Shown here one piece after another: positions 32,048 to 36,327 of a stretch of DNA of 51,490 nt. This DNA is from Candidatus Dormiibacterota bacterium (GTDB lineage Bacteria > Chloroflexota > Dormibacteria > Dormibacterales > Dormibacteraceae). The stretch spans positions 1 to 51,490 of the forward strand of contig PLYZ01000085.1 of the NCBI GenBank assembly GCA_003151935.1, written 5' to 3'. The position numbers and the translations under genes are program-made. The notes beneath the pieces are model-generated. The model had not been told where the DNA came from, ran no database searches, and saw only the letters and a program-made list of their open reading frames with translations. Positions within the stretch are counted from its first letter, which is position 1; each line of letters begins with the position of its first letter.

Positions 32048-33129
32048 CCACCACCAACCCTCTCGAGCTGTTCTTCCTCAACGACGGCGGCCAGACCGCC
32101 GACGTCGTCGCGCAGCGGGTCGCTTCGTTCCTCGATGGCGCGACCAAGACGCTGGACCTCGCCCTGTACGACCTGCGCCTGGAGGCTGGTCCGTCGGACA
32201 CGCTGTTCGGCTCTTTCGACGCGGCGCTGAAGCGCGGCGTGGCTGTCCGTCTCCTCTTCAACCAGGACCACGCCCAGGCGATCCCAGTCCCGCCACCGCC
32301 GGACATCGACTGGGCGTTCATCGACCGGCTGAAGGCGATCGGCGTCCAGATCAAGCCTGTGTCCGGCGTTCCCGACCTGATGCACCACAAGTACGTGGTG
32401 CGCGACGTCGGTACGCCGGCTGCGGCGCTGCTGACCGGCTCGACGAACTGGACCAACGATTCGTGGAATCGTGAGGAGAACGTCATGGTGACGCTCGCCT
32501 CCGCGGAGATCGCCTCGGATTACCGTGCCGACTTCGAAGAGCTCTGGCAGAAGCCGGTGGTCGCCGCGTCGGGCCGCGTCTCGGTGGGCTGGACGGCGCT
32601 GGCCGACGGCACGGAGCTCCGGCCGTACTTCTGTCCTGGGGGCGCCATGAAGCTGGTCCACGCGATGGCAAAGTCCATCGCCTCCGCGCAAAAGCGCATC
32701 CGCATCTGCTCGCCGGTGATCACATCTGGCCCCATCCTGGGTACTCTCGCCGAGGTCTGCGAGCATCCCGGCATCGACATCGCCGGTGTGTACGATGCGA
32801 CGCAGATGGACGAGGTGAAGCACCAGTGGGCATCGCAGGCCACCGCCTCCTGGAAGATCACTGCGTTCAACACGGTCGTGGCCGCTGTCAAGTTCGGCGC
32901 CAAGCGCTCAACGCCCTACGCCAAGGGCACGGTGCACGACTTCATGCACGCGAAGATCCTGGTCGCGGACGACTACGTCTACACGGGGAGCTTCAACCTT
33001 TCGCACAGTGGTGAGATGAACGCCGAGAACGTGATCCAGCTCCACAGCCCCGCGGTGGCGGCGATGTGCGCCGCGTACATCGACCGCGTGGCCGCCCGCT
33101 ATGGCGGCGCTCCTCTCCCGGTGGCCTAG
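32044..33129 (+). CDS. Phospholipase D-like protein, non-canonical start
   Basis: Two-HKD-motif PLD superfamily protein. Counting from 32044, motif 1 is H114-x-K116-x4-D121 in MHHKYVVRDV with GSTNWT, and motif 2 is H302-x-K304-x4-D309 in MHAKILVADDYVYTGSFNLS. The superfamily includes phospholipases, nucleases and cardiolipin synthases; without membrane helices, a nuclease or soluble hydrolase is possible. The first ATG/GTG/TTG in frame is GTG at 32239, well inside the first PLD domain (after LFFLNDGGQTADVV and LDLALYDLRLE). The open frame reaches the end of the LOG gene. ATA at 32044 (ATAG overlap, GAGGTGG upstream) or CTG at 32068 are the only plausible starts. 361 residues from the ATA. Confidence 0.8.
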   Translation: MATTNPLELFFLNDGGQTADVVAQRVASFLDGATKTLDLALYDLRLEAGPSDTLFGSFDAALKRGVAVRLLFNQDHAQAIPVPPPPDIDWAFIDRLKAIGVQIKPVSGVPDLMHHKYVVRDVGTPAAALLTGSTNWTNDSWNREENVMVTLASAEIASDYRADFEELWQKPVVAASGRVSVGWTALADGTELRPYFCPGGAMKLVHAMAKSIASAQKRIRICSPVITSGPILGTLAEVCEHPGIDIAGVYDATQMDEVKHQWASQATASWKITAFNTVVAAVKFGAKRSTPYAKGTVHDFMHAKILVADDYVYTGSFNLSHSGEMNAENVIQLHSPAVAAMCAAYIDRVAARYGGAPLPVA

Positions 33130-34521
33130 CTGCCGAGCCCTCGGGTCTTAGGGCTTGTGGCCGCAGCGGTGGCCATCGGGGCCATGGTGCTTGTTCTGGT
33201 GCTGCCACGCCTGCAGCCGTCGACCGGGACGCTGCTGGTGGCGGTGGCCGGGCGGACGGACGGCTCGCTGCCGAAGTCGCCCCTGATGATCCACGGCGGC
33301 GGCCAGTGGGTCGCGCTGGGCGATGTCTCAGGTGCGGCGCCCGCGGCTCCGGCCGAGCACGAGGTCACGACGGTCACCATTCCGGCGGGCGGCTACGACT
33401 GGGTGCGGCTGGGGGGCGACATCCAGAGGGTGCCGATCACGATCACGGCCGGCCAGGTCGAGCCCCTCTTGCTCGGGATAGAGTCCGGCCACCTCATCGC
33501 AGGGGCCGCATACGCCGGAAACGACGAGGTCAACCTTGGGCTCGGCGAGCTGGGGGGCAAGTTCGTGGCCATGCCCAACTACGAGCTCGTGGACCAGTCG
33601 GGGCAGCCCTTCAACCCCGTGACGACCGCCGGGAACGACCTCGTGATCGCCGCATTCCACACGACATGTCACGAGACCTGCCCGCTTTACACAGCGCTTT
33701 TCTTTCAACTCGAGCAGCACCTGCCGCCCGGGGTGACCCTGGCCGAGATCACGACCGACCCCGGCACGGACACCCCGTCCGCGCTCACCGACTATGCGCA
33801 CAGCATCGGCGCGCCATGGACGTTCGCGACCGGCAGCGCAGGCGCCCTCACGTCGTTCTGGAAACCGTTCGGGGTTCAGCTCGCGACCGGGGACGTCCAC
33901 ATCTCGACCCTCGCCCTCGTGGACCGGCACGGCTACGTGCGCCTGGTATACCGCGGAGTTCCCGACATCGGCGGCGGAATGCCGCCGTCCTTGATCTCAG
34001 GATTGAGCGTGCAGGGGCTCCACGATCTCGCTTCTGGTGGCGACGGCTGGGGCGCGCCGGACGTGCTCCAGTCGCTGGTCACGATCGCCGGTCCGCAGCC
34101 GGCATCGCCGGCCGCCGGGGGGACCGCTCCCGCGTTCGCATTGACCGGAACAGACGGGCGCCAGGTCACACTGGCAAGCCTTGCCGGTAAGCCCGCGGTG
34201 ATCAACTTCTGGGCCAGCTACTGCCCGCCGTGCCGGGCCGAGATGCCGTTGCTGCAGAGGCGCGTGGGGCAGCAGTCAGGCGCGCAACTCGTCCTGGTCG
34301 ATGAGGGCGACAGCAGCCAGGCCGCCCGAGATTTCCTCGGCTCGCTCGGAATCAAGCAGGCGGCGCTGCTGGACGCGGACCTCGGCGTGGGGCACGCATA
34401 CGGTGCGATCGCCCTGCCCACGACGGTTTTCGTGCACGCCGACGGCACCATAGCCGCACGCCACATCGGCCAGCTCGACGATGGCGTGCTCACAGCCCAG
34501 CTCGCGACTCTGGGAAACTAG
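33130..34521 (+). CDS. SCO1/SenC-TlpA fusion, cytochrome oxidase copper assembly
   Basis: Membrane-anchored protein joining two thioredoxin folds. An N-terminal helix (VAAAVAIGAMVLVLVL) anchors it. An unassigned beta-rich region follows. Numbered from GTG 33157, the SCO1/SenC domain has copper ligands CHETCP at 171-176 and the partner His in DVHISTLALVD. The C-terminal TlpA/ResA-like domain has FALTGTDGRQVTLASL and the active site CPPC at 356-359. Such proteins load copper into, or reduce, the CuA site of cytochrome c oxidase; ctaA and ctaB follow directly. GTG 33157 lies inside the hydrophobic segment. CTG at 33130, touching the PLD stop, would supply MPSPRVLGL with a positive N-terminal residue and is my preferred, tentative start. 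Confidence 0.85.
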   Translation: MPSPRVLGLVAAAVAIGAMVLVLVLPRLQPSTGTLLVAVAGRTDGSLPKSPLMIHGGGQWVALGDVSGAAPAAPAEHEVTTVTIPAGGYDWVRLGGDIQRVPITITAGQVEPLLLGIESGHLIAGAAYAGNDEVNLGLGELGGKFVAMPNYELVDQSGQPFNPVTTAGNDLVIAAFHTTCHETCPLYTALFFQLEQHLPPGVTLAEITTDPGTDTPSALTDYAHSIGAPWTFATGSAGALTSFWKPFGVQLATGDVHISTLALVDRHGYVRLVYRGVPDIGGGMPPSLISGLSVQGLHDLASGGDGWGAPDVLQSLVTIAGPQPASPAAGGTAPAFALTGTDGRQVTLASLAGKPAVINFWASYCPPCRAEMPLLQRRVGQQSGAQLVLVDEGDSSQAARDFLGSLGIKQAALLDADLGVGHAYGAIALPTTVFVHADGTIAARHIGQLDDGVLTAQLATLGN

Positions 34522-34528
34522 GTCGCGC

Positions 34529-35440
34529 ATGACCGGCGTCACGCTGTTCCGCCGCCTCGCTGTCGTGACCGCGATCTTCGCCTACTTGCAGATCGCGCTC
34601 GGCGGCGTCGTTCGCGTGTCCGGCTCCGGGCTTGGTTGTCCCGACTGGCCTCTGTGTCATGGCCGGCCTTATCCGCCCGCGGACGTGCATTCGATCATCG
34701 AGTACTCGCACCGCGCGGCCGGCAGCGTGACCGGTGTGCTGATCATCGCGACGGTAGTCCTCGCATGGATCGTCTGGCGCACACGCCGCCCGGTCGTGGC
34801 GTGGCTTGCGACCGCGTCGCTGATCGGTGTTGTGGGGGAGGGGCTGCTCGGAGCTGGGGTGGTCGCGACCGAGCTCGCGTCCTGGCTCGTGCTCATCCAT
34901 CTCGGCCTAGCGATGATCATCCTCGGCTTCCTGGTCGCGGCGGTGGCGATGTCGATGGCGCCGGGGCCTGGCGTTTCCGATCCCCGCTTCCGTTGGCTGG
35001 CCGCGATCGCCGTGGGCGCGACGTACCTGCTCCTGCTGACCGGATCGACCGTGGTGGCGAGCGGCGCCGACACAGCCTGCCACTCGTGGCCCCTGTGCGG
35101 TTCGGGCTTCACGTTTGACTTCACCGGCTTCAACGCGTTCACGATGCTGCATCGAGGCTCGGTGCTGGTCGTCGGAGCGCTCCTCGTGTTCGTCCTGCTG
35201 CGCGCGGCCAGGCTCCCTGGCCTGAGGGCTGCGTCGATCGGGACGCTCACGGTTTTCGTTTTGCAGGTCGCCGTGGGCGCCGGCGCCGCCGTGACGGACG
35301 GGGAGCTCTTCAACGGCCTTCACGTCGCGCTGGCCACGCTGGTCTGGGCGGGCGTGCTGACGACGGCGGTGCTCACACTGCCGCGTGTGGATCATGACGT
35401 CCAGCCTTCGCGCATGGTCGCGGAGAAGGGATCCGCATGA
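34529..35440 (+). CDS. ctaA: Heme A synthase (CtaA/Cox15)
   Basis: Membrane enzyme converting heme O to heme A for cytochrome oxidase. VVRVSGSGLGCPDWPLCHGR is the hallmark of the first extracellular loop. IIEYSHRAAGSV carries the first heme-ligand His; a second half repeats the fold with GADTACHSWPLCGSG, a loop Cys pair, and MLHRGSVLVVGALL. Eight hydrophobic segments in 303 residues. The ATG at 34529 is preferred to the upstream GTG/TTG inside the SCO gene because family members begin with a short tail before LFRRLAVVTAIFAYLQIALGG. The end overlaps ctaB by 4 bases (ATGA). Confidence 0.95.
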   Translation: MTGVTLFRRLAVVTAIFAYLQIALGGVVRVSGSGLGCPDWPLCHGRPYPPADVHSIIEYSHRAAGSVTGVLIIATVVLAWIVWRTRRPVVAWLATASLIGVVGEGLLGAGVVATELASWLVLIHLGLAMIILGFLVAAVAMSMAPGPGVSDPRFRWLAAIAVGATYLLLLTGSTVVASGADTACHSWPLCGSGFTFDFTGFNAFTMLHRGSVLVVGALLVFVLLRAARLPGLRAASIGTLTVFVLQVAVGAGAAVTDGELFNGLHVALATLVWAGVLTTAVLTLPRVDHDVQPSRMVAEKGSA

Positions 35441-36327
35441 GCGCGGTGACCACTCTGGCGGCGCGCAGCGCTACGAGCGTCGCGCGCGACTACCTCAGCC
35501 TGCTCAAGCTGCGCATCGTCGCGCTGCTGGACGCGACCGCGGTCGGCGTGATGATCCCGGCGGCGCACGGCCATCCACGACTCGTCGCGGTGCTGGCCGT
35601 CCTGGTCGGGGGCACCCTGGCGGCGGGCGGCGCGCACGCCATCAACTGCTGGTTCGACCGCGACATCGACGCCGAGATGAGCCGGACCCGCCGGCGCCCC
35701 CTGCCCGCGGGTCGCATCCCGGCTTGGCACGCGCTTGCGATCGGGATCGGGCTCAACGTCCTTGCCTTCGCGGTCCTCTGGGGGGACGCCAACCTGCTGG
35801 CGGCCGGCCTCGCCCTCGCGGGCACGCTCATCTATGTCTTCGTCTACACGGTCTGGCTGAAGCGCTCCACGCCGCAGAACATCGTCATCGGCGGTGCGGC
35901 CGGCGCTGTCCCGCCGCTGGTCGGGTGGGCTGCCGCCACAGGCCACCTGGACGTCACCGCGCTGGCCCTTTTCGGAGTGATCTTCTTCTGGACCCCGCCG
36001 CATTTCTGGGCCCTCGCGCAGATGATCAAGACGGACTACGCTCGGGCGCGCGTCCCGATGCTTCCGGCCATCGGTGGCGAGCGCTCGGCGAAGCGCCAGA
36101 GCATCGTGTACGCGGTGCTCACCACGGCGGTCAGCGTCGTCCCGTTCTTCACGGGGTCAGCCGGCGCGATCTACCTCGCCGGAGCAGTCGTGCTGGGTGT
36201 CGGGCTGGTCGGCCTCACGGTCCTGGACTTACATGGGCGCCGGTGGACGAGGCGCGTCTTCACGTATTCGCTCGCCTACGTGGCGCTGCTTTTCATGCTC
36301 TTTGCTGTCTCCCCGTTCTTGCCCTAG
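35437..36327 (+). CDS. ctaB: Protoheme IX farnesyltransferase (heme O synthase)
   Basis: UbiA-family prenyltransferase that converts heme B to heme O. LKLRIVALLDATAVG begins the protein. The first Asp-rich motif is NCWFDRDIDAEMSRTRRRPLP in extended form, the second is in TDYARARVPMLP, and TPPHFWALAQMIK is typical of CtaB rather than other UbiA proteins. Nine hydrophobic segments in 296 residues. The start overlaps ctaA (ATGA), so heme O and heme A synthesis are coupled. No ctaC/D/E oxidase subunit genes are in the window. Confidence 0.96.
   Translation: MSAVTTLAARSATSVARDYLSLLKLRIVALLDATAVGVMIPAAHGHPRLVAVLAVLVGGTLAAGGAHAINCWFDRDIDAEMSRTRRRPLPAGRIPAWHALAIGIGLNVLAFAVLWGDANLLAAGLALAGTLIYVFVYTVWLKRSTPQNIVIGGAAGAVPPLVGWAAATGHLDVTALALFGVIFFWTPPHFWALAQMIKTDYARARVPMLPAIGGERSAKRQSIVYAVLTTAVSVVPFFTGSAGAIYLAGAVVLGVGLVGLTVLDLHGRRWTRRVFTYSLAYVALLFMLFAVSPFLP

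Follow-up and report, generated by a model that had tools for sequence, protein, structure and literature searches.

The locus described here raises the question of whether two oxidase assembly factors, a Sco1/SenC protein and a TlpA-type thiol reductase, are truly joined in one polypeptide and, if so, what such a chain would do. It lies in a window of 51,490 nucleotides, the whole stretch of DNA that was analyzed, taken from a MAG-like assembly of Candidatus Dormibacterota (2.94 Mb, 97 contigs, 99.6% complete) that belongs to a lineage of uncultured soil bacteria. A preliminary description of the window had reported the fusion ahead of ctaA-ctaB, left the N-terminal 130 residues without an assignment and suggested a check for missing separate Sco and TlpA genes. 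The two activities occur as separate proteins elsewhere: according to excerpts of published reports, Bradyrhizobium TlpA reduces ScoI and CoxB (PMC6696091; PMC9145763), Bacillus subtilis Sco (YpmQ) works without PCuAC, and ResA keeps apocytochrome c reduced (PMC9145763).

Gene and domain architecture

Positions 33130-34521 of the forward strand form a single uninterrupted frame, closed by a TAG ending at 34521 in the ORF reading of the window. The first ATG, GTG or TTG in this frame is the GTG at 33157, from which a mechanical ORF yields 454 aa; residue numbers of the fusion protein are counted from this codon. If the CTG at 33130 is the translation start, the gene probably spans 33130..34521 on the + strand, with 463 codons and a stop. 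It is abutted by the stop of an upstream gene for a phospholipase D-like (PLD) domain protein (32239..33129, + strand), assigned by PF13091 (E 1.2e-29) and synteny. The downstream genes are those named in the preliminary description, namely ctaA for heme A synthase (34529..35440, + strand; PF02628, E 1.4e-33) and ctaB for heme O synthase (35437..36327, + strand; TIGR01473, 296.9 bits against a cut-off of 210.3).

Analysis with Pfam confirmed that both domains lie in the same 454-aa frame, with SCO1-SenC at residues 141-248 (E 1.5e-18) and Redoxin/AhpC-TSA at residues 320-441 (E 1.3e-24). The chain runs, all on the + strand, from a membrane helix through a beta-sandwich, a Sco1/SenC domain and a low-confidence linker to a TlpA/ResA-type thioredoxin domain; the AlphaFold2 model of the whole protein, built on 44 orthologues, had a mean pLDDT of 85.2 and a pTM of 0.58. 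The predicted membrane anchor (residues 2-19, 33160..33213) is a helix in the model with a hydrophobic sequence, and an eight-stranded beta-sandwich follows (residues 23-120, 33223..33516). The Sco1/SenC domain (residues 137-272, 33565..33972) was assigned from PF02630, conservation and matched Sco structures; it carries the CxxxCP motif and distal histidine of that family (C171, C175, H248), and its PF02630 score of 67.5 bits exceeds the curated cut-off of 22.8. It continues into a modeled helical C-terminal extension (residues 273-311, 33973..34089), which is also present on the free-standing Sco of two other loci (L097 and L098). A linker with pLDDT <50 (residues 313-320, 34093..34116) leads to the thioredoxin domain (residues 321-454, 34117..34518; PF08534/PF00578), in which the CxxC, cis-proline and AhpC-TSA/Redoxin family match of TlpA/ResA/DsbE-type proteins were all found (C356-P-P-C359, cis-Pro 421).

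In an alignment of 44 distinct fusion frames from the source genome and related genomes, C171, C175, C356, C359 and P421 were present in 44/44 and H248 in 43/44, the Sco histidine being missing from one member (L072). The CHETCP...H and CPPC motifs reported earlier fall at C171, C175, H248, C356 and C359. The earlier label of a TlpA-type reductase held as far as the CPPC motif and the Redoxin family match are concerned, but the nearest solved relative of the domain was Bacillus ResA (TMt 0.89), with B. japonicum TlpA lower in the list, and the fusion protein scored below the NCBIfam cut-offs for ResA (81 bits of 170), DsbE (62.4 of 123.15) and TlpA (52.6 of 230). The domain is therefore filed as TlpA/ResA-type and not as TlpA or ResA proper.

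A missed stop or an assembly error joining two genes was ruled out by 44 continuous orthologous frames from many assemblies, all of which are open across the linker. The sole frame break seen was at L045 (5875-7255), where the N-terminal part is spread over two frames by an apparent frameshift in one assembly. The fusion is real, and within its class it is old.

The N-terminal domain

The N-terminal 130 residues, which the preliminary description had suspected of being a further domain, proved to consist of a membrane helix and a beta-sandwich. The latter was modeled with confidence by AlphaFold2 (pLDDT 96.4 and pTM 0.89 when modeled alone). The window's own N-terminal domain matched nothing in Pfam at E ≤1; among the 44 members the Pfam matches were weak and each concerned single members. 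A PDB profile search gave a single match (E 0.82), and in Foldseek searches against structure libraries the best PDB match had E 9e-3, with none <0.001. VIA returned assorted beta-sandwiches, with transthyretin- and Ig-like folds compared, at Z up to 7.2, which lies within the range of unrelated matches.

Two candidate identities were considered. PCuAC or another metal domain does not fit because conserved His/Met ligands are absent; just one alignment column holds His, Met or Cys in at least 30% of rows (His in 22/44). DUF4382 is an improbable identity: PF14321 matched weakly in 1/44 members (E 0.23) and was not found in 41 relatives that could have served for comparison. Among the Sco-thioredoxin chains seen, the beta-sandwich is particular to the window-type fusion.

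Distribution and phylogeny

The fusion, counted as both domains in one frame or as a contig-cut remnant, was present in 41/61 genomes (the source genome and 60 relatives). Loci repeating genomes already included (L027-L035 among them) were left out before counts were made. By family, it occurred in 34/37 genomes of the source genome's own family f1, in 3/8 of f2, in 4/4 of f4 and in 0/12 of f3. The three f1 genomes without it either had no CtaA match (G017, G027) or had CtaA cut by a contig end (G004), so the fusion locus is probably unassembled there. When 400 genomes drawn from the phylum were surveyed, all 39 carriers belonged to the own class (39/55 class genomes) and 0/345 were found elsewhere; four candidates were scored per genome, and the matches listed reached down to about E 1e-36, far weaker than the fusion scores. 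A contig scan gave 37 loci, of which 20 were near full-length relatives, all from Dormi(i)bacterota, Dormibacteraeota or Chloroflexi, and the remaining 17 matched the thioredoxin part alone.

Trees were computed for both domains by quick searches with SH-aLRT support only and with long-branch warnings. For the thioredoxin tree, most close fusion rows were removed, leaving 29 window-type rows, and the rows of several Mucilaginibacter thioredoxins, of four Sco proteins and of the contig-cut L082 were left out. In this tree the fused domains grouped with the free TlpA of a second oxidase operon (SH-aLRT 91), apart from CcmG; the ccmG of the source genome fell in another group. In the Sco tree, the free-standing Sco proteins of two f21 genomes (G183, G267), which share the helical extension after the Sco fold, grouped with the window-type fusions (SH-aLRT 99). 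The second Sco of the source-genome type, the G013 proteins and a Frondihabitans protein fell outside the window-type clade.

A plasmid search with the window protein gave no record at 80% cover, and a search with a two-domain relative gave one. The Frondihabitans protein, WP_066284294.1, is encoded on a plasmid of Frondihabitans sp. PAMC 28766, where its gene comes after a CtaG-type gene and a CcdA family gene, and is annotated as a redoxin domain-containing protein. Like the window protein, it combines a Sco domain with a C-terminal CxxC thioredoxin domain on one chain (CTDLC...H and CTAC); it differs in its length of 383 aa, which leaves no room for a beta-sandwich, and in having a Sco of another clade, so it looks like an independent fusion. 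The Sco-thioredoxin fusion thus appears to have arisen at least twice. In G013, two further proteins pair a Sco domain with a thioredoxin-like region (L083, 4318-5469; L105, 1425-2555), without a beta-sandwich; in the one examined, L105, the second domain has no CxxC. In the open-access literature searched, we found no description of a Sco-TlpA fusion or of the Frondihabitans Sco-Trx protein. The component domains are known ones; what is new is the variant that unites them, with an extra domain, in one chain.

Gene neighborhood and start codon

The family retains the gene order LOG-PLD-fusion-ctaA-ctaB-MBL-rhodanese-FabI; L027 and L028 are examples of its LOG-to-ctaB part. At four loci (L064, L069, L070, L082) the interval from the fusion to ctaB contains no ctaA match, and ctaA is found on other contigs; at four further loci (L065, L066, L068, L071) the fusion has a CcmG-clade gene as its neighbor, and the probes used gave no cta match. 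Second fusion copies were seen in L074 (G031 C2) and L073 (G024 C82), each adjoining a free TlpA-like gene. The surroundings of L074 include CopC-CopD and genes for a BlaI-type regulator and for a DsbD_2-cupredoxin protein; a DsbD_TM gene is found about 100 bases from the fusion copy. DsbD_TM (CcdA-type) matches were present in 53/61 genomes, above the cut-off in 38/61, and numbered two in the source genome. In f3, G046, G042, G044, G048 and other genomes have adjoining DsbD_TM and TlpA matches on the same strand, with equal frame length (~400 aa); these frames likely represent a CcdA-TlpA fusion, in a family without the Sco-TlpA fusion.

When the fusion gene starts were compared across 26 close orthologous loci, codons -8 to +3 relative to the homologous start contained no ATG, GTG or TTG (0/26). 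Among the neighboring genes, a canonical start within 8 codons was found for LOG (16/16), CtaA (25/25), MBL (18/18), rhodanese (18/18), FabI (17/18), PLD (18/24) and CtaB (17/23). As the misses for PLD and CtaB indicate, measuring from the homologous start is itself subject to error. Near-cognate codons occupied the homologous start position in 25/26 aligned rows (CTG 18, ACG 4, ATC 2, ATT 1), lying -4 to +7 nt from the PLD stop and forming a CTGA overlap in seven rows. In a nearby leucine column (+2), CTC was commoner than CTG (15 vs 7). More distant f1 fusions had ATG or GTG at the start position in 10/11 cases, and at three loci (L020, L025, L042) the next canonical codon would cost most or all of the membrane helix. 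These counts are not independent because the loci are related. In the window, the probable near-cognate start is the CTG at 33130..33132 (+ strand), directly after the PLD stop, as placed by orthologue comparison. The pattern suggests that the fusion gene may be translated by coupled (re)initiation on a near-cognate codon, mostly CTG, after the upstream stop.

Separate Sco and TlpA genes and the two oxidases

The idea that separate Sco and TlpA genes are missing was not borne out, and loss in the source genome was ruled out by a Sco gene on contig C30 and TlpA-like genes on contigs C49 and C75. Across the class, 34/41 carriers had no Sco above the Pfam cut-off outside the fusion frame; the carriers with an additional Sco were G000, G002, G003, G008, G013, G022 and G059. 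A match to COX2, the CuA oxidase subunit, was found in 32 of the 34 sole-Sco carriers, the other two (G014 and G035) being represented by assemblies that are 59% and 85% complete. PCuAC was found in 0/61 class-level genomes, with positive controls matched. In f3, 7/12 genomes had no Sco above the cut-off and 6 of those 7 had a COX2 match. This counts against an essential role, since Sco is apparently dispensable for building CuA in this class. The f3 genomes without Sco are also without a PCuAC match.

The source genome encodes two oxidases. The first, coxA-coxB with coxC, lies on C11, a contig separate from that of the fusion, and has no adjoining Sco. The second is split between C30 (Sco, an unknown gene, CoxB2 and a small protein) and C49 (CoxA, CtaG, a CtaB-like UbiA protein and a free TlpA). 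In a relative the locus is contiguous (L104), with the order Sco2-X-CoxB2-small-CoxA-Y-CtaG-CtaB2-TlpA2, and this order is kept in L103 and L102, although the CtaB2 match was not seen in L102. The CuA motif CxExCx3HxxM is retained in the CoxB of both C11 and C30, and the ccmG of the source genome sits in a ccm cluster. The unfused pair thus serves the second oxidase, and we infer that the fused pair serves the first.

Discussion

The link to oxidase assembly proposed in the preliminary description is supported by the synteny with ctaA-ctaB, the phyletic pattern and the kinship of the fused domain to an oxidase-operon TlpA, and the protein is probably an oxidase assembly factor. The reading we favor, with a fair but far from complete degree of conviction, is that this membrane-anchored protein helps, as a single chain, to assemble the CuA site of the main heme-copper oxidase. 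The N-terminal helix would hold the protein at the outer face of the membrane, where the beta-sandwich may act as a spacer or docking domain. A CcdA/DsbD-type membrane protein would reduce C356-C359 of the TlpA domain, which in turn, by analogy with Bradyrhizobium, would reduce C171-C175 of the Sco domain or the CuA cysteines of CoxB, both within reach on a flexible tether. The Sco domain would bind copper through C171, C175 and H248 and pass it on to CoxB, PCuAC not having been found in these genomes. The coupling of thiol reduction with copper delivery on one chain is plausible. Further points in favor are the fusion as sole Sco in most carriers that have a COX2 match, the CuA motif in both CoxB proteins, the copper and DsbD-type genes around L074, and the CtaG and CcdA neighbors of the Frondihabitans chain. 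Points against are the position of coxAB/coxC of the main oxidase on C11, away from the fusion, the f3 genomes with COX2 but no Sco above the cut-off, the short Sco loop, the missing histidine in L072, the CcmG-clade neighbors at L065, L066, L068 and L071, the scores below the NCBIfam cut-offs, and the genomes in which DsbD_TM gave no clear match. We regard as possible, though doubtful, an extended version in which the fusion would be a class-wide one-chain machine for CuA metallation, made up of an anchor, a docking beta-domain, a chaperone and its own reductase, with its level set by reinitiation on a conserved near-cognate (mostly CUG) start, and replacing PCuAC and a separate TlpA.

Other explanations of the same data were weighed. 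The Sco domain could act purely as a disulfide reductase in a thiol relay, with copper reaching CoxB by another carrier. Between the conserved TG and the Sco histidine, the window family has 22 residues, compared with 25 in the L104 free Sco (91% identical to the free Sco of the source genome) and 42 in f4 fusions, and the short loop before H248 in the window family leaves room for such a relay; the second redox domain on the chain points the same way, as does a reductase role proposed for Sco1 in Thermus ba3 assembly in an excerpt of one report (PMC7558416). However, a pure reductase could dispense with H248, which is kept in 43/44 members, PCuAC as the copper carrier was not found in the 61 genomes, and copper genes adjoin a second fusion copy; we therefore consider a purely thiol-based role unlikely.

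The protein could also help in cytochrome c maturation, its TlpA/ResA domain reducing apocytochrome c with the Sco domain as an auxiliary. That ResA is the best solved relative and that a CcmG-clade gene adjoins the fusion at L065, L066, L068 and L071 would fit this role, but the source genome has a ccmG in its own ccm cluster and the fused domain groups with oxidase-operon TlpA, which makes such a helper highly improbable. Finally, the fusion might be a convenience of co-expression, with the domains acting on different targets and their linkage having no mechanistic role. The low-confidence linker, the pTM of 0.58 and the lack of a fixed interface in the model agree with this, and separate genes suffice for the second oxidase; yet the fusion is kept in three of four sampled class families and a Sco-Trx fusion apparently evolved a second time in another lineage, and we give this explanation very little credence.

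As a CuA assembly factor, the fusion resembles Bradyrhizobium TlpA and ScoI, as far as these are covered in the excerpts cited above, in its two activities, the CxxxC...H motif, the thioredoxin-type folds and the CuA subunit as target. It differs in that the Bradyrhizobium factors are two separate proteins working with PCuAC-type chaperones, whereas the fusion is one chain with an extra beta-sandwich, in a group with PCuAC in 0/61 relatives. B. subtilis Sco (YpmQ) and ResA are likewise separate proteins; among solved structures, ResA matches the C-terminal domain best. The second oxidase operon of the source genome (Sco on C30, TlpA on C49) offers the same pair of functions and the nearest free kin of the fused TlpA domain; in contrast to the fusion, its pair is unfused and inside the oxidase operon, with a Sco of another clade.

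Taken together, the existence of a natural Sco-TlpA fusion itself supports the pairing of both factors. Should the conserved near-cognate start prove real, it would be one of the rare instances of lineage-wide non-AUG initiation. With the fusion, reduction and copper loading could be measured jointly on a single construct, and the source genome, which carries one fused and one unfused pair linked to different oxidases, offers a built-in comparison.
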